Below, in pieces: positions 29,943 through 45,907 of a DNA stretch of 49,963 nt. Source of the DNA: a virus; the IMG/VR virus record IMGVR_UViG_3300048587_000174, positions 1 to 49,963 of that record, one strand, 5' to 3'. A model generated the notes under the pieces. It saw only the letters and a program-made list of their open reading frames with translations, had not been told where the DNA came from and searched no databases. The translations under genes and the position numbers were made by a program. The stretch's first letter is position 1. Every line of letters starts with the position of its first letter.

Positions 29943-31964
29943 TTATATCTCCCCATTAACCAACCTGACGTAATCCACCCACGTGGGATGAGGTATTTTC
30001 CTAATGCGGCAAACTTCATACGCCAAAATGTCCCTTAACGCCATGTTATAAATCCGAACGTCCCAGAAGTGATTTTGTAGCGATGATTTTTTCTTTACCC
30101 ATTTGTATTTTAAATCCAGTTTATCGTTGGGATCCTGCTCCAAAATCCTATGTTCAGCCTCAAAATGAGCAAAATAACGCGGATATGAGTATTTTCCGTC
30201 CGATTGCTGGGGGTAATTCATAAAACCCACAGGCTGATCATCGTCCTGAGCCGGATCCCAAGTCAACTGCATTAAATCCGCCAGCTGATCCTTCACTTTG
30301 TTAACCTCCACCAGGTACAGCTTATTACGGCTCACAGCCGGACGAAATACAGCGGTTTCCTTGTTAATCCTGGTATATTTAAACACATCCTTACCTTTTA
30401 GCCCCACACACCAAAAATCTTTCACCGAATCAATGAAATCGAATGCGTTTTTCTCAAAAAAACCGGTGTCTATGCCAACAATCATAGGTTTCATCTTAGT
30501 TCCGGTGTCTTTTTCGTACGCCTTTGTCGCAATTTGCCGCAAAACAGGCCAAACTGAACGGCTCGATCTGAGGTTATAACTCCATCTTATACGGTCCTGT
30601 TTGTGTTTTATAGAATTTTCCTTCGGAATAAAGGTGCCAATTGATCCCTGATCAATGGAGTACGGCGTTCCTGATTCACTCCATGCCACCAATTCCCAAT
30701 CCAAACGAACATCATCACCGCCCTTATCATCTTCCACACCTCCCAAATCGCAGGCTAATGTGAGCGCAATTATCTTACCGTTGCCGTCCTTAATGGATAA
30801 TTTCTCAGGAATAGTGCCAATTGGATATTCTCGGTGGTTATTCCTGAGCAGGTTTGCGTTTACCTCCTTGGATTTTTCTTCATAAGTCAATCCCAGCACC
30901 AGGTTTGTGAATGTGTGTAATTTTTTGGTGTTTATCTGCCCGTTGGGAGGGCATGCCTTTAGGTACTGGTAAACATACTTTGTCCATCCAAACATTCCTG
31001 GGGCGGCATACAGCGAGCTGATTTGATATGAAACATATCCGGGCGCAAACGGGTCCGCCGTTGGAACCCACAGTCCATTGTAATTTAACTCATACTTATT
31101 TTTTTCATCGAAAAAACCGGAGCACAACTGGCAGATATAACCAACGGATGATTCAAACAGCCGCCCGCGTTCGTCTGTTTTCCAGGTAATCCCCGCCAAC
31201 CCGGATCCGGTTTCAAACTGCCACTCCAACGGAATCAACTGCTGACAGCATGGGCAATGAACGTTATACCTGCGCTGATCGCCCAACAGATAAACAGGTT
31301 CAATGTTTGAGTTGTGCTTGGTTTCGGGTGTGGAAATAAAAAACAGCTTCATTTTCGATTCGCTGGAAGCAAATCGCTGCTCGATCATTTCTTCGGTGGA
31401 TCCAGATTCTTTGGATAAGCCTTTGGCCGCCTCGTAATCATCTATGAATCCAACCTGAACAGTACGCTGGCGCAGTAATTTGTGATTCCCCGCCGATCCT
31501 GCAATGATTGAACCACCAGGAAATTCCTTGGCCTGGTTTGTATCTCCGGTGCGCTGATTTTTTTTTCTGAGCGTATTAGGGCCAATCAGCGGGCGTAACC
31601 CACACGAGTCAATCATTTCATCAATCCTGCCTGACATTGATTCTTCCGCCAGGTCTATGTGTCCGGTAAGAAATAACACATCAACCGGTTTCTGGTCAAT
31701 AATCCACCCTAACCCGTTTTCGATCACTCCGGCGGAGGCACCCAACTGAGCGCCCTTCATAAGCGCAATAATCCTGGCGGGTGATTCAGGTGATAAATGA
31801 TTTACAATCTCTCGAAAATACGGAGTCCGATCATAAGAATAAGGCCCTGGAAATGGAGATTTTTGAGGCATTACCCTGTGTTTTTCCGCCCATTCGGACG
31901 GCAGCATGTTTGATAGCTGAACCCGTCCGGAGTTAATTAGGCTTGATATGTGTGCTTGGAGCAT
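29943..31964 (-). CDS. Terminase large subunit, lambda gpA-like (673 aa)
   Basis: The sequence matches gpA-type terminases: PSEWAEKHRVMPQKSPFPGP near the start, a Walker A-like MKGAQLGAS (69-77), a Walker B-like FIDDYEAAK (172-180), Cys pairs (CPCCQQL, CQLCSG) and a nuclease region with IVGIDTGFF. Length 673 is near lambda A (641). It drives DNA into the capsid and cuts it, most likely at cos sites. Met20 is a possible later start. The small subunit gene is not adjacent; 2.3 kb of attC-like cassette DNA separates them. Confidence 0.9.
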   Translation of the reverse strand: MLQAHISSLINSGRVQLSNMLPSEWAEKHRVMPQKSPFPGPYSYDRTPYFREIVNHLSPESPARIIALMKGAQLGASAGVIENGLGWIIDQKPVDVLFLTGHIDLAEESMSGRIDEMIDSCGLRPLIGPNTLRKKNQRTGDTNQAKEFPGGSIIAGSAGNHKLLRQRTVQVGFIDDYEAAKGLSKESGSTEEMIEQRFASSESKMKLFFISTPETKHNSNIEPVYLLGDQRRYNVHCPCCQQLIPLEWQFETGSGLAGITWKTDERGRLFESSVGYICQLCSGFFDEKNKYELNYNGLWVPTADPFAPGYVSYQISSLYAAPGMFGWTKYVYQYLKACPPNGQINTKKLHTFTNLVLGLTYEEKSKEVNANLLRNNHREYPIGTIPEKLSIKDGNGKIIALTLACDLGGVEDDKGGDDVRLDWELVAWSESGTPYSIDQGSIGTFIPKENSIKHKQDRIRWSYNLRSSRSVWPVLRQIATKAYEKDTGTKMKPMIVGIDTGFFEKNAFDFIDSVKDFWCVGLKGKDVFKYTRINKETAVFRPAVSRNKLYLVEVNKVKDQLADLMQLTWDPAQDDDQPVGFMNYPQQSDGKYSYPRYFAHFEAEHRILEQDPNDKLDLKYKWVKKKSSLQNHFWDVRIYNMALRDILAYEVCRIRKIPHPTWVDYVRLVNGEI

Positions 31965-32227
31965 GTTAGTTTTGATTTATAAAACGCAAGCAATGGCAGC
32001 AGTTGACGCGAATGTTTACTATCGTGCAAATGAATTTATGTTTAAAGTTGGAGTTGTACTTCAACCCGCAAACTGATCGGCATGTTACACCTCCTCCGTT
32101 TTGAAAATTGTACTTTGATGTTAAGTGTATTTTTCCCATACTTCAAATTTTAAAATTTCGCAAAGCCAACCGTTTTAATTGATTGGAACGAAAGCCGTTT
32201 CGCCAATGCGGTAGTTAGCAGAAATGG
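31965..32227. other. Intergenic: cassette-array edge next to the large terminase
   Basis: No convincing gene is present. The right end (32214-32220) carries GTTAGCA directly after the last cassette gene, as in the other attC-like elements, but a matching inner arm is not found, so this palindrome seems broken by the join to phage DNA. The left part has no recognised structure; a 27-codon plus-strand frame (31993-32076) was rejected. Confidence 0.5.
32214..32220 (-). repeat. Truncated attC-like end (core box only)
   Basis: The minus strand reads TGCTAAC just after the stop region of the 97-aa gene, equal to the core box of the complete palindromes upstream. Its partner arm is absent or degenerate. 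It marks the downstream edge of the cassette array. Confidence 0.4.
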
Positions 32228-32521
32228 CTACTGACCGTCTTCGTTTGACAATTCCACCAACAAGGCATCGGCAGCTTGAATTGAAATCTTTGAAAGATGT
32301 TCGTAATTCCAAGTTTGACAATCTCCTTCTTGTGAATGTCTATCCGCCCCTGAAAGTAACCCTTGCATCAAATGAAGTGCAAAGTATTCACGTTTAGTAA
32401 GTCCTCCGAACTTTACTTCCCACCCTGTTTTTTGCCCATCTTTCAAGGGTTGATAATCATCTGCACCGTCTCCGCATTTAGTGTACATTGTTGGTGTAAT
32501 TGGTTGTTTCCCGTTATTCAT
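32228..32521 (-). CDS. Small cassette gene: phage/Bacteroidota hypothetical (97 aa)
   Basis: The protein reads MNNGKQPITPTMYTKCG and includes GGLTKREYFALHLMQGLLSG, a pattern known from small hypothetical proteins widely carried by phages and Bacteroidota. Function is unknown. The 3' end on the minus strand (GAAGACGGTCAGTAGCC) is almost identical to the 3' end of the 89-aa gene, although the proteins differ otherwise. It lies as the last cassette of the array, followed by a truncated attC-like end. Confidence 0.65.
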   Translation of the reverse strand: MNNGKQPITPTMYTKCGDGADDYQPLKDGQKTGWEVKFGGLTKREYFALHLMQGLLSGADRHSQEGDCQTWNYEHLSKISIQAADALLVELSNEDGQ

Positions 32522-32568
32522 TTTGTTTACGTTTTAAATTAAAACCCTTGTAAATTGACCGCCACTTC

Positions 32569-32699
32569 TGCTAACAAGGGTTTGTAGCAATAGGGGCAGA
32601 AGTGCAAGTTTTGAGCCTTTTACTTCTATTGGGCTATTGTGCTGTATTCATCAGTAGTGCATCAAATTCCCTACTGCTACAAGCCCTCCAACGTTATGT
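32569..32699 (-). repeat. attC-like palindromic element C
   Basis: Boxes TGCTAAC (32569-32575) and GTTATGT (32693-32699) bound 131 bp. Inner arms 32576-32596 (AAGGGTTTGTAGCAATAGGGG) and 32669-32689 (CCCTACTGCTACAAGCCCTCC) are imperfect inverses. On the minus strand it directly follows the 89-aa gene. The AAC...GTT core with long inverted arms is the layout of integron attC sites. Confidence 0.6.
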
Positions 32700-32705
32700 G
32701 CAAGG

Positions 32706-32975
32706 CTACTGACCGTTTTCAAATCGGAAGTTTGCGAGAAAAAAGCCAAACAAAAACGTTTTGGAAATTGGGTAATCATTAATATCAATTTCAACTTCTT
32801 CCAAATAAATATCTTCCAAGTCTTTCACAACTTCACCTTCAATGTGTATTGGCATATCTGAATTTTCGTTTGTCCAAATACATAAATAATCGTTTCCGTT
32901 TTTGTTTTTAGCAATAGGTGTTACATAAGCATATTGCTTATAACCACACCCTGCTGTTGATTTATAAAATTTCAT
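32706..32975 (-). CDS. Small cassette gene, unknown (89 aa)
   Basis: No family is recognised. The protein is acidic (VVKDLEDIYLEEVEIDIND) with the opening MKFYKSTAGCGYKQYAYVTP. It is more AT-rich than the phage core genes. It is flanked by attC-like elements B and C, so it forms one complete cassette. Its last codons share the CGGTCAGTAGCC end with the next cassette. Confidence 0.6.
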   Translation of the reverse strand: MKFYKSTAGCGYKQYAYVTPIAKNKNGNDYLCIWTNENSDMPIHIEGEVVKDLEDIYLEEVEIDINDYPISKTFLFGFFLANFRFENGQ

Positions 32976-33017
32976 TTCGTTTTCAAATTAAAATTTAGTG
33001 CTGACAAACCGCCCAGC

Positions 33018-33099
33018 ACATAACAGCGGTTTGTGGTCATTAGCCCGACCACACAAGGCTTTGCTTCGCTAACGAACCACAAGCCGCAAAACGTTATGC
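33018..33099 (-). repeat. attC-like palindromic element B
   Basis: Boxes ACATAAC (33018-33024) and GTTATGC (33093-33099) bound 82 bp. Arms 33025-33037 (AGCGGTTTGTGGT) and 33076-33087 (ACCACAAGCCGC) are near-perfect inverses. The stop codon of the 88-aa gene overlaps the right box, the usual placement of attC at a cassette gene end. Confidence 0.65.
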
Positions 33100-33360
33100 T
33101 CCATTGCTACGTGACCGCTTCGATTTGACATTTGTGGAAGTTTTTTTAATCTTTTTTTCTCCCACGCTTCCAGTCGTTTTCATTACTGATTTTCTGATGA
33201 TACAAATTGCATTTTCAAAATTTGAAGTGTCAAAATCAAATCTGTCAAGCGTAAATTTTGAAATACCTAAATCAGGATTTTCAGAGCATAAAGCGGACAA
33301 GCTCCCATAATATTTATGAGAGTTGTCTGCTTTGGTTTCTAAGTGAAAGATTTTACGCAT
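33094..33360 (-). CDS. Small cassette gene, unknown (88 aa)
   Basis: The protein starts MRKIFHLETKADNSHKYYGS, contains ISKFTLDRFDFDTSNFENAI and ends in a very basic tail (KKIKKTSTNVKSKRSRSNG). This could bind nucleic acid, but no domain is recognised. It overlaps the upstream 101-aa gene by 8 nt, so the two form one two-gene cassette. Its stop lies in attC-like element B. Confidence 0.6.
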   Translation of the reverse strand: MRKIFHLETKADNSHKYYGSLSALCSENPDLGISKFTLDRFDFDTSNFENAICIIRKSVMKTTGSVGEKKIKKTSTNVKSKRSRSNGA

Positions 33361-33658
33361 TTTCTTCCTCTTTGTCGTTAATTTCTTCGCACCACTCTAA
33401 AATGCTTTCTTCTAAGCTGTCAAATGCTTTTTCTTTATAAGCATTTTGAATTTCATCCCATGAAGCATTTTCTGCTTTCATATCAGAAATTTGGTCAATG
33501 AACATGCTGTCAGTTGTGTAATGACGGAATGTTTTTTTCTCGCCTTTAAAAGACACTTCGCAGTTGATATTCCAGCCACCACGTCCTTTAAACTCTTGAG
33601 CAAAATAAGTTTCGATTTCAAATTGCTCTCCTTTGTAATTTTCGATTGTTGTTGTCAT
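33353..33658 (-). CDS. Small cassette gene, acidic protein (101 aa)
   Basis: The protein begins MTTTIENYKGEQFEIETYFA and is strongly acidic at the C terminus (EEINDKEEENA). The acidic product and the basic product of the overlapping next gene might interact, which is an inference from charge only. It has its own consensus Bacteroidota promoter at 33691-33722. No family is recognised. Confidence 0.65.
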   Translation of the reverse strand: MTTTIENYKGEQFEIETYFAQEFKGRGGWNINCEVSFKGEKKTFRHYTTDSMFIDQISDMKAENASWDEIQNAYKEKAFDSLEESILEWCEEINDKEEENA

Positions 33659-33690
33659 GATTTCTATTTTTTAATTGTTATTTGATGATA

Positions 33691-33722
33691 CAAATATAAG
33701 CCACTTATTTGTAACCACCAAA
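33691..33722 (-). promoter_or_regulatory. Consensus Bacteroidota promoter for the 101-aa cassette gene
   Basis: On the minus strand TTTG (33722-33719), a 20-nt spacer and TATATTTG (33698-33691) fit the TTTG-N19/21-TAnnTTTG consensus exactly. The gene start is 33 nt downstream. An own promoter inside a cassette is known for some integron cassettes. Confidence 0.75.
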
Positions 33723-33867
33723 CATTTTTACAATTATTTTTCACTTATTTGTAATTTTATTTGTAAAGTGTTGATTTTCAATGTGAATATTTTTAGCCCA
33801 CCGCACAAAAAAAGATTAAAAAAACAGTGCTTCGATTGAAGTTTAGTGCTAAAAAACCGCAACGAGA

Positions 33868-33999
33868 GCATAACACACGTTTGGCAAAAGTGGCGTTGCA
33901 GTAGTCCGCTCTACATTTACTGCTATATTCAACATCCGTTCTCCGCATTGGCATTTGTGGTAAAAATCGCCACCTTCGCCAAGCGTGGGAACGTTAGCG
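33868..33999 (-). repeat. attC-like palindromic element A
   Basis: Boxes GCATAAC (33868-33874) and GTTAGCG (33993-33999) bound 132 bp. Arms 33877-33895 (ACGTTTGGCAAAAGTGGCG) and 33968-33986 (CGCCACCTTCGCCAAGCGT) are near-perfect inverses. It begins 6 nt after the stop of the 61-aa gene on the minus strand. Confidence 0.65.
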
Positions 34000-34005
34000 G
34001 CAACC

Positions 34006-34191
34006 CTAAGAAGCCTTAAACTTTCTTTTAACAGTTGACATTGCTAATCGTCTTTGAAACTCTACCATTGTGATTTTCTCTTTATTCCAAGAGTAATCAA
34101 AGTTACTTCTATCCCACCCATCAGGGTCTAAGACTTCATAACCAACTTCTTTAATCCATTCAGCGGACACTTTTTTAATTTCTTTTGACAT
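34006..34191 (-). CDS. Small cassette gene, unknown (61 aa)
   Basis: A 61-residue basic protein, MSKEIKKVSAEWIKEVGYEV then DPDGWDRSNFDYSWNKEKIT. No family is recognised. It is preceded by a GTTAGCG box (34220-34226, minus orientation) and followed by attC-like element A, so it is the first cassette of the array. Base composition is AT-rich like the other cassettes. Confidence 0.55.
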   Translation of the reverse strand: MSKEIKKVSAEWIKEVGYEVLDPDGWDRSNFDYSWNKEKITMVEFQRRLAMSTVKRKFKAS

Positions 34192-34219
34192 TTTATTTTG
34201 ATTTGTGAAGAAGGGCAGC

Positions 34220-34226
34220 CGCTAAC
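34220..34226 (-). repeat. Truncated attC-like end at the upstream edge
   Basis: The minus strand reads GTTAGCG, the terminal box of an attC-like site, followed by the 61-aa cassette. The arm beside it (34227-34246) has no inverse partner before the small-terminase gene begins at 34295, so this element is cut off and marks the upstream edge of the array. Confidence 0.4.
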
Positions 34227-34294: not shown

Positions 34295-34975
34295 TCAACT
34301 CAACCTATCCCCCTGCCCCCTCACGTTTGAATACTCCTGAACGATATTACTAACCGATTCTTCAGCCAAATCACATCCATCATTCACAGCCTTATTCACG
34401 ATCTTAATTATTCGACCGCGCATGCTGGCTACCTGCTCACGGGTTAATCCGGATAAACTGGCAAACTCCATAAGCAAATTATCGGCCTCATTCTGAAACG
34501 ATGAAAGCAGCGATTTACTGAACCTTGCAAACGTACCACGCACCAAATCAACAGGCACAACCTCTCCGGCCATCTTCGCCCGCTTTAATTTTGCAATCTC
34601 TAAATCCTCTTCTTTCCTGGCCAGTTCTGTTTCTTTAATTTTCTGATCCAGTTGATTCAACGGACTTACATACTGAAATTCGCCAGGGTCTTTGAAACTC
34701 TTTGGCTTTAGCTTATCAACAGGTTTTCCCAATTTCGGCTTGCGCCCTGGAGCCTGAATTACTTTAGTCCTGGCCTTATGCTCCGGCCTTTCAATCGGCT
34801 CTGGAATCTCCGTCAACTGGCTCTGCCACTTCTCCATAAACGCAGCGTTCACGTCTATTTTATCATCCACCAGCTCGCCGGATAAAATCACCTTCCCGCG
34901 CTTAATGTACTGCGTGAGCCAGTTCTTATCCTTGCCACATAAACGTGCAAAATCTGATCTGCGATGAAGGGCCAT
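34295..34975 (-). CDS. Putative terminase small subunit, Nu1-like (226 aa)
   Basis: I start at 34975 (MALHRRSDFARLCGKDKNWL). The first ~45 residues look like a helix-turn-helix of the Nu1 or MerR-like type (FARLCGKDKNWLTQYIKRGK). A basic linker follows, then a coiled coil (LDQKIKETELARKEEDLEIA) and a helical C terminus. Size, DNA-binding start and coiled coil agree with small terminases that pair with gpA-type large subunits. The large subunit lies 2.3 kb downstream beyond the cassette array. A consensus promoter is just upstream. Confidence 0.6.
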   Translation of the reverse strand: MALHRRSDFARLCGKDKNWLTQYIKRGKVILSGELVDDKIDVNAAFMEKWQSQLTEIPEPIERPEHKARTKVIQAPGRKPKLGKPVDKLKPKSFKDPGEFQYVSPLNQLDQKIKETELARKEEDLEIAKLKRAKMAGEVVPVDLVRGTFARFSKSLLSSFQNEADNLLMEFASLSGLTREQVASMRGRIIKIVNKAVNDGCDLAEESVSNIVQEYSNVRGQGDRLS

Positions 34976-35303
34976 TTCTGGAATCGTTGTTATCTTTAGC
35001 GTTTGCAAACATACAAAACAGGGTAACAAGTTCCAAATGTGTGTCAACCCCTTGATTTTCGGGGCTTCGCATCTTTTGCACCCCCTCTGAAATTTTCCGG
35101 AAGTACCTTGATGGGTGGGGGTGGGTGCCTTTGAGGTGGATAACAAGGTGTTGAGGTTAAAGCGGAGTGATACGCAGTGAATAAATGGCGATAGACGCGC
35201 GTCAGGTCGCTCAGGGTTGCGTTACTGTGTGCGGCTGGTGTTATGTATTAGATTGCGATACTGAACGCATCAGAGTGCGCGAAACGAAGCCAACAAGCGT
35301 AAT
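34976..35303. other. Intergenic upstream of the small terminase; promoter and possible packaging region
   Basis: No gene is seen. It holds the late promoter (35006-35037), a hairpin CCCC...GGGG near 35053-35069, G-rich tracts around 35110-35127, and the palindrome GACGCGCGTC (35194-35203). In lambda the cos site lies just upstream of Nu1, so a packaging site is possible here, but nothing defines the cut. Confidence 0.4.
35006..35037 (-). promoter_or_regulatory. Consensus Bacteroidota promoter for the terminase/late operon
   Basis: On the minus strand TTTG (35037-35034), a 20-nt spacer and TATGTTTG (35013-35006) match the consensus exactly. The small-terminase ATG lies 31 nt downstream of the box. 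It probably drives the packaging genes and the cassettes behind them. Confidence 0.75.
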
Positions 35304-43294: not shown

Positions 43295-45907
43295 TCAAAT
43301 CAAATATTCATCATTTCCATCTTCCGAAAACAAATTAAACTCAGGCACAACCAGCGGCGCGCGCTCCTGATTTAACTTACTCTGCCTGTGTTTATACATA
43401 AACGCGGCCCATCCTGGTTTGTAATTCCTGGCCGCAGCTATGGCCAGAAAATCTTCCAATGTGCGGGCGCGTCCAATTTCCATCCTGCGCTCTTTGCGCA
43501 GTAAGTCCTTCATTTCGGAGGTTATTTCCACCAGTTCACCGTCAACCTGTTTTATTTCCTGTGATTTAACGGTGTAAACATGTCCGCAAACTGTGGGATA
43601 AATATTCGGGCAAAACGGAGCAGGTGGGTGAACGTAATAACATTTCGGGCATTGAACTACGTTTATTTTTTCACCACTGGCAGCCAGTGATTTGCGGCTG
43701 TTTTTCGTTTTTCCGTTTAAACTCCACGTCCTAATTTCATCCGGTAATCCATGTGCCAGCACGTTGCCCACGTGGTCCAAAATGTACGCAAACGGCTTGG
43801 GGCCTAATTCGATAGCCCTGAGCCTTCCCGCGTCCGTGTCCAAGGGCATCAAATTCGCATACACAGGCCTGAGCACCCTTCCGATTTGCTGAATAAACAA
43901 ACCCAACGATGCAGTGGGCCTGAGCAGGATTCCACAAACCACATTCGGCAGGTCTGTTCCTTCAGAAACCAAATCACAGGTCGTTAAAACTTGATAGCGT
44001 CCGTTTTCCAGTCCGTCAAATCGTTCAGAGCGCGTTAAATCATCCATTTTGCCGTCAACGTGAGCCGTTCGGTATCCGGCAGCGGAAAACGCCTCAGAAA
44101 CGTGAATTGAGTGATCTATTGAAACGCAAAACACAATGCAGGGCTGACCAGCGCAAACTCGCGTGTAATGATCCACAGCATCACCTGTAATGGTTGGTTT
44201 ATCAATCTTGGATAGAACCTGATTTCGGTCATAATCTCCGGCAACGATGTCAACGTCTGATAAATCAACGCGGTTTCCAGGGCAAAACACGCGAGCACGG
44301 GTTAAATATCCCATGTCCATCAGTTCACCGGTCTGGGGGCCTTCAATTAACTGTTCAAAGTACCCGCCAGCGTCAACGCCCAATCCCGCCCCATCGCTGC
44401 GCACTGGCGTAGCTGTAACACCTAATTTGTAAGCGTTTGGAAAATTATCCATGATTTTACCCCAAGTATTTTTGCGCGTACAATGGTGCGCCTCGTCTAT
44501 GATAATTAAATCAGGTGGCCGTAACTTTCCGATCCTGTTTACAACGGTTTGAACGCTGGCCACCTGAATTAACTCCTGTGGCGCAGGTGTGTAATTCGGG
44601 TTAATCATACCAAACCGCATACCTAATTTGCGAAGTGAATTTCCCGCCTGCCTGAGTAGTTCAATTCTGTGAACTAAAATCCAGACTGAATTGCCACGAT
44701 GCGAGGATCCTGCAGCGATGTCTGAAAAAATGGCGGTATTGTGAGTTACCGTGAAATCTCCTAATAAAAAAAGTCGATCATTCCCTGAAATTTCAAACCC
44801 AAAGTATTCTCCTACCCCCTTTTTCTTTACAGTTATTCCTGTAACAAGATGATTTTTTTTCTGTAATCTTTTTGCAGCTTTTTTTCTTTCAATTTTACAT
44901 GGAATTTCGCATATATCACCAACAATAGAAACGCTATAATAAACTCCCGCAACTCCGTTATTATAACATTTTTTAATTCTTTTTGATTTATAACAAGCAA
45001 ATCCAAGAGATCGAGATACAAAAATTATATCATCAATAAGTCTTTCGTTTTTTTGTATTATATCGAATCCTTTCATTGAATAATACCCATCAGTATCAAT
45101 TATTCCAGCCAATAATTTAAGTCTATTTTCTCTTGAAGAAGTTTTATAATCGTGCGGTATGTGCTTGTTTTTTATTAGTCCGTATTTTTTAAATTTATTC
45201 ATTAAAAAACTACCCCCTCTACCTCTATGAATTTTATCTTTTAAATGAAGTATTGAACTTTTTTCTGTATTAAACTCTCTCCTTATTAAACAATCGTTTA
45301 ATAAGGCAAAATCATAGATATATCTCTCTATTTCAAAATCTCCTGTTGTAATTGCCATTGAATCACTAGATCCATCTCCAAGCCAAACTCCCAAAAAATA
45401 TGAATCAATTAATAATTCATTTTTATTGTTTTCAAAATCAACGCCCACTCTCCATCCTTTGTGAATGTGTTTAAATGTCTTTGATTTTGACAAATAATCC
45501 AGTACCGAAATGTTTGTAATATTTCCGCCTTTTTTATCTGAAGGATAAATTGGGTTTGACGATGTATATGTTTGCTTTAAACTTAAAATATGGCTTTCGT
45601 TTACTGTATATGAATCTCCTTTGATTGGGATTATATCATACAACATTTCAATTCCAGAGCACACAGACTCAACTGTTCTGGGTTTACTATCTGGACCCAT
45701 TAATAAATCGCCAACAACAACTTTTTCAACCGGCTTAATGGTTCCATCAAACATTAATACAGGAGTTCCACGCCCCAGGCATTTACCCCCGCCTGTTGGA
45801 AGAGCAGCCAGTACGTGTTTTGTGCCCTGCATAAATGCGGAACGTACACGTGTTTTAATGTCCTGCTGATATGGGCGGAGGGTGAGCACGGATGAATTAT
45901 TTAACAT
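43295..45907 (-). CDS. SF2 DEAH-box helicase interrupted by an intein (870 aa; 522 aa after splicing)
   Basis: The extein is a type III restriction/UvrB-like SF2 helicase: RPYQQDIKTRVRSAFMQGTK, Walker A PTGGGK|T, DEAH motif LIIIDEAHHC, a VTATPVR motif III, then motif VI QQIGRVLRP. Four Cys residues near residue 765-790 (CPKCYYVHPPAPFC) form a zinc-ribbon-like element. An intein of 348 residues sits between Lys42 and Thr391, inside Walker A, so ATPase activity depends on splicing. It likely unwinds branched phage DNA together with the VRR-NUC product. The start overlaps the XRE gene stop by 11 nt. Confidence 0.9.
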   Translation of the reverse strand: MLNNSSVLTLRPYQQDIKTRVRSAFMQGTKHVLAALPTGGGKCLGRGTPVLMFDGTIKPVEKVVVGDLLMGPDSKPRTVESVCSGIEMLYDIIPIKGDSYTVNESHILSLKQTYTSSNPIYPSDKKGGNITNISVLDYLSKSKTFKHIHKGWRVGVDFENNKNELLIDSYFLGVWLGDGSSDSMAITTGDFEIERYIYDFALLNDCLIRREFNTEKSSILHLKDKIHRGRGGSFLMNKFKKYGLIKNKHIPHDYKTSSRENRLKLLAGIIDTDGYYSMKGFDIIQKNERLIDDIIFVSRSLGFACYKSKRIKKCYNNGVAGVYYSVSIVGDICEIPCKIERKKAAKRLQKKNHLVTGITVKKKGVGEYFGFEISGNDRLFLLGDFTVTHNTAIFSDIAAGSSHRGNSVWILVHRIELLRQAGNSLRKLGMRFGMINPNYTPAPQELIQVASVQTVVNRIGKLRPPDLIIIDEAHHCTRKNTWGKIMDNFPNAYKLGVTATPVRSDGAGLGVDAGGYFEQLIEGPQTGELMDMGYLTRARVFCPGNRVDLSDVDIVAGDYDRNQVLSKIDKPTITGDAVDHYTRVCAGQPCIVFCVSIDHSIHVSEAFSAAGYRTAHVDGKMDDLTRSERFDGLENGRYQVLTTCDLVSEGTDLPNVVCGILLRPTASLGLFIQQIGRVLRPVYANLMPLDTDAGRLRAIELGPKPFAYILDHVGNVLAHGLPDEIRTWSLNGKTKNSRKSLAASGEKINVVQCPKCYYVHPPAPFCPNIYPTVCGHVYTVKSQEIKQVDGELVEITSEMKDLLRKERRMEIGRARTLEDFLAIAAARNYKPGWAAFMYKHRQSKLNQERAPLVVPEFNLFSEDGNDEYLI
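44738..45781 (-). mobile_element. Intein with LAGLIDADG homing endonuclease in the helicase Walker A motif
   Basis: Encodes residues 43-390 of the helicase. It starts with Cys43 (CLGRGTPVLMFDG) and ends HN before Thr391. Blocks are complete: N-terminal block A, a block B with TVNESH, two dodecapeptide motifs (FLGVWLGDG, LLAGIIDTDG), and the C-terminal FGFEISGNDRLFLLGDFTVTHN-type block (last residues TVTHN). The first extein residue after it is Thr, a valid splice nucleophile. The insert is clearly richer in A and T than the flanking helicase, a sign of separate origin. Confidence 0.92.

Follow-up and report, generated by a model that had tools for sequence, protein, structure and literature searches.

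Clusters of attC sites lacking integron integrases (CALINs) have been described in virulent phages, namely Tetrasphaera phage TJE1, Polaribacter phage P12002L and Pseudoalteromonas phage PH101, and the same paper also covers a complete integron in the temperate Shewanella phage M16-3 and the activity of IntI1 on phage attC sites (Qi et al, 2023; PMC9892861). In Bacteroidetes proper, a complete integron was reported by IntegronFinder 2.0 only for Salinibacter (PMC9024848). Here, a virus contig of 49,963 nucleotides (IMG/VR record IMGVR_UViG_3300048587_000174, analysed over its whole length and called the window below) was examined for an array of small genes and palindromes that lies between the genes of the small (TerS) and large (TerL) terminase subunits. 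We regard it as highly probable that this is an integrase-less, CALIN-like array of four integron-type cassettes, which the phage captured between terS and terL from a pool kept by large, partly T4-like phages with an integron-like platform of their own. The sequence features that point to this are the complementarity between the two boxes of each cassette (the own-box rule), hairpins shared with other phages, a shared cassette with exact borders, an attI-like site and the association of a recombinase with such arrays.

The array resembles the CALINs of virulent phages in having cassettes with attC sites and small same-strand open reading frames (ORFs) and in the absence of an integrase gene. 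It differs from them (PMC9892861) in that its sites match arrays in other phages with a dedicated recombinase of a non-IntI type. A location between the two terminase genes was not described for those CALINs in the text consulted.

The minus strand from 34226 to 32214 contains four head-to-tail units with five ORFs, and three hairpins stand between the units (Table 1). An earlier note, made from the letters of the window, had listed five small same-strand genes between the terminase genes, three palindromic elements, truncated boxes at both edges, one overlapping gene pair and one gene with its own promoter. All of these were recovered: the palindromes with their boxes lie where it had placed them, both edge boxes are exact reverse complements of the other box of their own unit, the two ORFs of C2 (C2a and C2b) share 8 bp, and a Bacteroidota-type promoter-like TTTG-N20-TATATTTG was recognized by eye in C2 at 33721-33690. 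The cassette layout it proposed also held; the count had to be corrected to four units instead of five cassettes, with the ends of the array formed by half-boxes without a hairpin. In every unit, the GTT box at the 5' end and the AAC box at the 3' end are exact reverse complements of each other, over 9, 9, 9 and 10 nt, and the 12 cross pairs of boxes match over 4-6 nt only. This pattern would be expected if every unit had passed through a circle that joined both of its ends into a single attC site. The array combines two or more attC sites, formed by AAC...GTT boxes and arms that are imperfect inverted repeats, between same-strand ORFs with own-box complementarity, a cassette found with exact borders elsewhere (C2 in viral contig L207) and the absence of an integron integrase nearby. 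No protein of the 49,963-bp record matched PF00589 (tyrosine recombinase), and the array is therefore integrase-less. For a possible fourth attC at 32214-32160 and a possible decayed fifth cassette with the 57-aa ORF, boxes agreed at 8 of 10 positions by eye and folding lent the hairpin no support; no attC-like hairpin was found downstream of C4, where the flank folded no better than its shuffles (z 0.01).

The chance occurrence of such a chain was assessed with detectors of our own, using shuffles that preserve composition in 100-nt blocks and not dinucleotides. The detector combining palindromic arms with the own-box rule linked the three hairpins of the window, and a chain of three was obtained in 0 of 200 block-shuffled windows. 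When hairpins were disregarded and boxes of 9 nt were required, the real chain of 4 units exceeded all 500 shuffles (maximum 3); at 8 nt, this test was non-discriminating in AT-rich sequence (6 in the window, up to 5 in the shuffles). As a positive control, the arm-and-box detector found chains of up to 7 near classical IntI genes (in stretches up to 15 kb), and the 55 phage stretches with homologues of C1 or C4 gave zero chains save one of 2 (L180). Pairing of the hairpin arms reached 88% in the register lying 5 nt after AAC and 1 nt before GTT and was mostly 15-36% in other registers. Folding as single-stranded DNA gave moderate z-scores for the three hairpins (-1.4, -2.8 and -2.5), which were unmatched in Rfam at gathering thresholds.

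The cassette C2 recurs in L207 with its identity extending across the full unit; the alignment breaks off about 10 bp ahead of GTT on one side and 7 bp past AAC on the other. It is the sole independent gene unit by which linkage between genes and hairpins could be compared across arrays, the other shared units belonging to near-duplicate contigs. The copy of hairpin 1 lies in a viral contig of 430 kb, where its array adjoins a recombinase relic, and hairpin 2 recurs in further viral contigs at 97-100% identity, where the upstream boxes and the downstream genes differ and the leader following GTT is common. This leader is conserved together with hairpin 2 in L008-L015. Such joint travelling of a hairpin and its post-GTT leader ahead of a different gene was noticed at two places (L008-L015 against window 33024-32980, and L066 8890-9045 against window 32575-32540), and leader and ORF appear separable.

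At almost all of the 53 viral loci with homologues of C1, these were phage genes outside any array, and so were the C4 homologues L205 and L206; the cassettes therefore carry phage genes. No protein relative was found for the 89-aa ORF of C3. Among 64 cassette proteins of the phage arrays there were 2 Pfam families, 16 one-member PHROG families and one DNA methyltransferase recognized by PADLOC, and no function common to them emerged from these three resources. DNA matches of named phages at C2 were considered as copies of the cassette and rejected, as they cover its promoter region and not the cassette; this region (33750-33650, minus strand) shares 78% identity over ~105 bp with Flavobacterium FspS phages. 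The comparison with plasmids returned short weak matches only.

In the nearest relative of the window phage (L002), the end of terS and the beginning of terL overlap and the array site is empty. Cellulophaga phage phiSM and Flavobacterium phage FCL-2 have small unrelated ORFs upstream of terL, and no attC chain was seen upstream of terL in these two. The terS-terL site is therefore variable and the array, as far as distant relatives go, is non-ancestral; the earlier note had held that conserved gene content at this place would count against a cassette array, and it is not conserved in the relatives compared. With the own-box rule and the finding of C2 between different hairpins elsewhere, the empty site upholds the view that an integron-type cassette array was inserted between the terminase genes. 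The 3' junction of the array, AAC/TACCGC, has AACTA in common with the attI-like site of the recombinase loci described below.

In two of the contigs containing hairpin 2 (71 kb and 310 kb), the array ends at a gene for a tyrosine recombinase of 267-268 aa. A search with both recombinases led to 27 viral contigs, the intact copies showing 77-100% identity; these and the following locus counts include near-duplicate contigs (L057-L059, L064/L065 and L068-L071), and all phage data are from metagenomic contigs. A T4 gp23-type capsid gene was present in 12 of the 27 records. Upstream of the recombinase an attI-like site, AAC followed by a conserved sequence resembling TATATTATATA, was recognized by eye in 27/27 contigs, usually 50-53 bp from the start, and the 9 nt ahead of it are variable and mostly agree with the last cassette's 5' box. 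Judged from these letters, the site resembles an attI that has received a different cassette in each contig; the pattern alone is unspecific (22 matches, ~60% of them without a recombinase). Chains of attC-like sites were found upstream of the recombinase in most contigs with sufficient upstream sequence, and 91 of the 95 cassettes scored had their longest ORF on the recombinase strand. Close copies of all three window hairpins occur at loci of this kind, with either the recombinase or its relic (Table 1). The earlier note had counted a lack of similar elements next to integron integrases against its reading, and such elements do lie beside recombinases, albeit of a non-IntI type. In L066-L072, the recombinase gene is eroded by internal deletions (residues 1-38 or 1-19 remaining, for example) and the array persists, and in L064/L065 the gene is frameshifted. 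Decay of the recombinase could plausibly give rise to arrays without an integrase, such as the one in the window.

A constant loop of 11 nt, TCGTTTTAATG, was also noticed in these phage-integron loci, where it caps palindromes of unrelated sequence with 33 distinct occurrences (including L046 3316, L049 357, L050 5929, L052 4042 and L072 4014). Most copies have perfect inverted repeats of 5-12 bp directly at their sides, and five fill an "empty" cassette that has a GTT and an AAC box of its own. The controls of 268 kb and 518 kb contained 2 occurrences each, and the window contained 0.

The residues R133, K158, H217, R220, H243 and Y252, which we take to be the catalytic residues of tyrosine recombinases, are invariant in the phage enzyme. 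The stretch from KGxKxR to HxLRHS, which holds the additional domain in IntI proteins, measures 53 residues in it, 100 in IntI and 58 in related Flavobacteriaceae recombinases. An additional domain specific to IntI is used to define or detect these integrases (PMC9668308; PMC2426708, which cites Messier and Roy 2001), and the phage recombinase scored 154-157 bits with TIGR02249, for which the cut-off is 265. In a maximum-likelihood tree, the phage recombinases formed one clade (100/99) separate from the IntI clade (100/98). The likeness to Xer/XerA recombinases extends to domain length and architecture, and the best sequence match in the PDB was the Xer-like archaeal recombinase 4a8e; an AlphaFold model (predicted local distance difference test 75, predicted template modelling score 0.57) matched XerA and IntI4 about equally. 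The phage recombinase differs from Xer/XerA in adjoining a cassette array with an attI-like site.

With the classical integron (IntI, attI and attC), the platform has in common a tyrosine recombinase beside the array, an attI-like site adjoining its gene as read from the sequence, hairpins bounded by GTT and AAC, and own-box complementarity. The recombinase, however, has no IntI-specific additional domain and falls outside the IntI clade, the cassette ORFs point towards the recombinase whereas those of classical integrons read away from attI, and the spacer asymmetry of the present sites is 3-4 nt. On these sequence grounds, the platform is integron-like in anatomy and departs from a classical integron in two defining features, the additional domain of the integrase and the direction of the ORFs. 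The complete integron of M16-3 is similar in having integrase and array inside a phage; integrons of that type are host IntI integrons in temperate phages (PMC9892861), whereas here a single recombinase clade extends across many large, partly T4-like contigs.

In the mechanism that we propose, the 267-aa recombinase would bind folded single-stranded hairpins, cut at the GTT/AAC boxes and join the hairpins to the attI-like site at these boxes. Units of the form hairpin-GTT-gene-AAC would pile up beside the recombinase gene in the order of phage transcription. Co-infection or a shared host could have delivered an array to the window phage through secondary-site recombination. The cassettes would be co-transcribed with the terminase genes or use promoters of their own, and their small products may provide accessory phage functions; an accessory or counter-defence role of these small and diverse products is possible. 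A wider proposal, which we put forward tentatively and at somewhat less than even chances, is that large T4-like phages of Bacteroidota have a phage-specific cassette exchange of inverted polarity, driven by an Xer-like recombinase outside the IntI family, that the cassettes also spread to unrelated phages, the window phage among them, and that the TCGTTTTAATG loop may trace the making of cassettes or hairpins.

Several points weigh against capture of a cassette array from such a platform. The hairpins on both sides of C2 differ between L207 and the window, and a simple model of a gene with one attC therefore does not explain this unit. Close relatives of the window phage, whether carrying or lacking the array, were not found (50% identity for the best TerL relative), and capture is deduced from distant relatives only. 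Hairpins are missing at both ends of the window array, unlike the platform array of G003, the one studied closely, which keeps the recombinase-distal one, and terminal deletion or decay must be assumed. We infer the recombination activity of the arrays and of the platform, and a chromosomal array of Bacteroidota is a possible source. As to the first of these points, in which L207 shares the gene unit of C2 (33874-33093) and neither of the adjacent hairpins, gene units and hairpins may be exchanged separately.

Derivation from a Flavobacteriaceae chromosomal array with an Xer-like, non-IntI recombinase akin to that of the phages is unlikely in our estimate. Recombinases related to the phage one (~35-55% identical) were present in 195 of 300 genomes sampled from the family of the Flavobacterium metagenome-assembled genome (MAG) that gave a partial hairpin match, and attC-like chains of at least 3 occurred at 9 of the 20 best chromosomal loci; their hairpins nevertheless differ in sequence from those of the window, which the phage array hairpins match closely. 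In that family, nine chromosomal loci (L097, L098, L100, L101, L102, L106, L107, L108 and L109) have Xer-like recombinases of 277-386 aa without the IntI domain beside attC-like arrays and are possibly overlooked chromosomal integrons.

We consider capture from a classical chromosomal IntI integron of the host, with the phage depending on host IntI, slightly less likely still. Sampling of the phylum to which the Flavobacterium MAG (G009) belongs gave IntI above the cut-off in 84 of 296 genomes, cassette chains lay beside several of these IntI genes, and attCs of other virulent phages are reported to be recombined by IntI1 (PMC9892861). Copies of the window hairpins were, however, not found next to IntI in the fetched loci; all of the best hairpin matches are in viral contigs, at non-IntI recombinase loci or in recombinase-free arrays. 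A search of genome contigs with the arm pattern of a single attC gave only a partial match to one arm in the Flavobacterium MAG and a chance match in an Aminicenantes MAG. Since the best-matching sites adjoin a phage-encoded non-IntI recombinase, the phage platform or its cassette pool is the more likely source; the part of the earlier note that spoke of a captured array stood, and the use of a host recombinase, which it had also suggested, is the less likely alternative. That the palindromes are ordinary interspersed repeats, either terminators or elements like repetitive extragenic palindromes, imitating attC is very improbable, for although intergenic hairpins can be terminators and the moderate z-scores and the silence of Rfam would suit them, such elements predict neither exact complementarity across the gene but not across the hairpin nor the sharing of a 782-bp unit with its limits at the boxes.

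Searches of a library of open-access papers, which did not cover preprints and most subscription papers, brought up no integron-like platform encoded by a phage and served by a non-IntI recombinase; none of these papers unites the terms integron, jumbo phage, tyrosine recombinase and cassette. If the capture from such a platform is true, phages keep and use a cassette platform of their own, beyond picking up pieces of bacterial integrons, and a modular store of small, mostly unknown genes moves between unrelated phages. Such systems would escape integron surveys because their recombinase is without the domain that defines IntI and serves its detection by software. How attC cassettes originate is still an open question, on which the constant loop would offer a testable handle, together with the inverted polarity and the non-IntI recombinase.

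Table 1. Features of the cassette array and its flanks in the window (all on the minus strand).
Feature	Coordinates	Strand	Evidence
Terminase small subunit (TerS), upstream flank	34295..35146	-	PHROG 57 terminase small subunit 3e-14, phrog_5193 4e-19
5' edge half-box GTTAGCGGC of C1, upstream hairpin absent	34218..34226	-	Exact reverse complement of GCCGCTAAC (34001-33993)
Cassette unit C1, ORF 34006-34191 (61 aa)	33993..34226	-	phrog_11725 9e-23
attC-like hairpin 1, 118 nt from AAC to GTT	33875..33992	-	91% over 134 bp to L072 array hairpin
Cassette unit C2, 782 bp, ORFs 33353-33658 (101 aa) and 33094-33360 (88 aa)	33093..33874	-	96% identical unit in L207; 88-aa ORF phrog_10608 3e-4
attC-like hairpin 2, 68 nt	33025..33092	-	100% over 87 bp in G003/L046, adjoining intact recombinase
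Cassette unit C3, ORF 32706-32975 (89 aa)	32693..33024	-	9-nt box pair; post-GTT leader common to other arrays
attC-like hairpin 3, 117 nt	32576..32692	-	84% over 133 bp in L066 array, adjoining recombinase relic
Cassette unit C4, ORF 32228-32521 (97 aa)	32214..32575	-	10-nt box pair; phrog_2201 3e-12
3' edge half-box TTCTGCTAAC of C4	32223-32214	-	Exact reverse complement of GTTAGCAGAA (32575-32566)
57-aa ORF between array and TerL, without confident family	31966..32139	-	Box-like CTAAC directly before TerL start
Terminase large subunit (TerL), downstream flank	29943..31964	-	PF05876 1e-42, PF20454; PHROG 15 3e-130

The virus record, which IMG/VR classes as linear, encodes among its proteins a gpA-type terminase large subunit, a lambda-type portal, a Clp-like protease, capsid E and baseplate J, and the phage is therefore probably contractile-tailed. 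Relatives of its TerL were found in Cellulophaga and Flavobacterium phages (37-39% identity) and in the single IMG/VR contig at 50%; the host is probably a member of Bacteroidota. The 57-aa ORF between the array and TerL is possibly a decayed fifth cassette. At the other end of the array, a short ORF, MARNDLKEENPNDGNNVLAAALLHKSK (34275-34190, minus strand), begins in phage sequence past terS and crosses the first cassette border, and it is perhaps a gene split by the insertion of the array. Away from the array, a helicase gene at 43295-45907 (minus strand) is interrupted in its Walker A motif by an intein with Hint and homing endonuclease domains.

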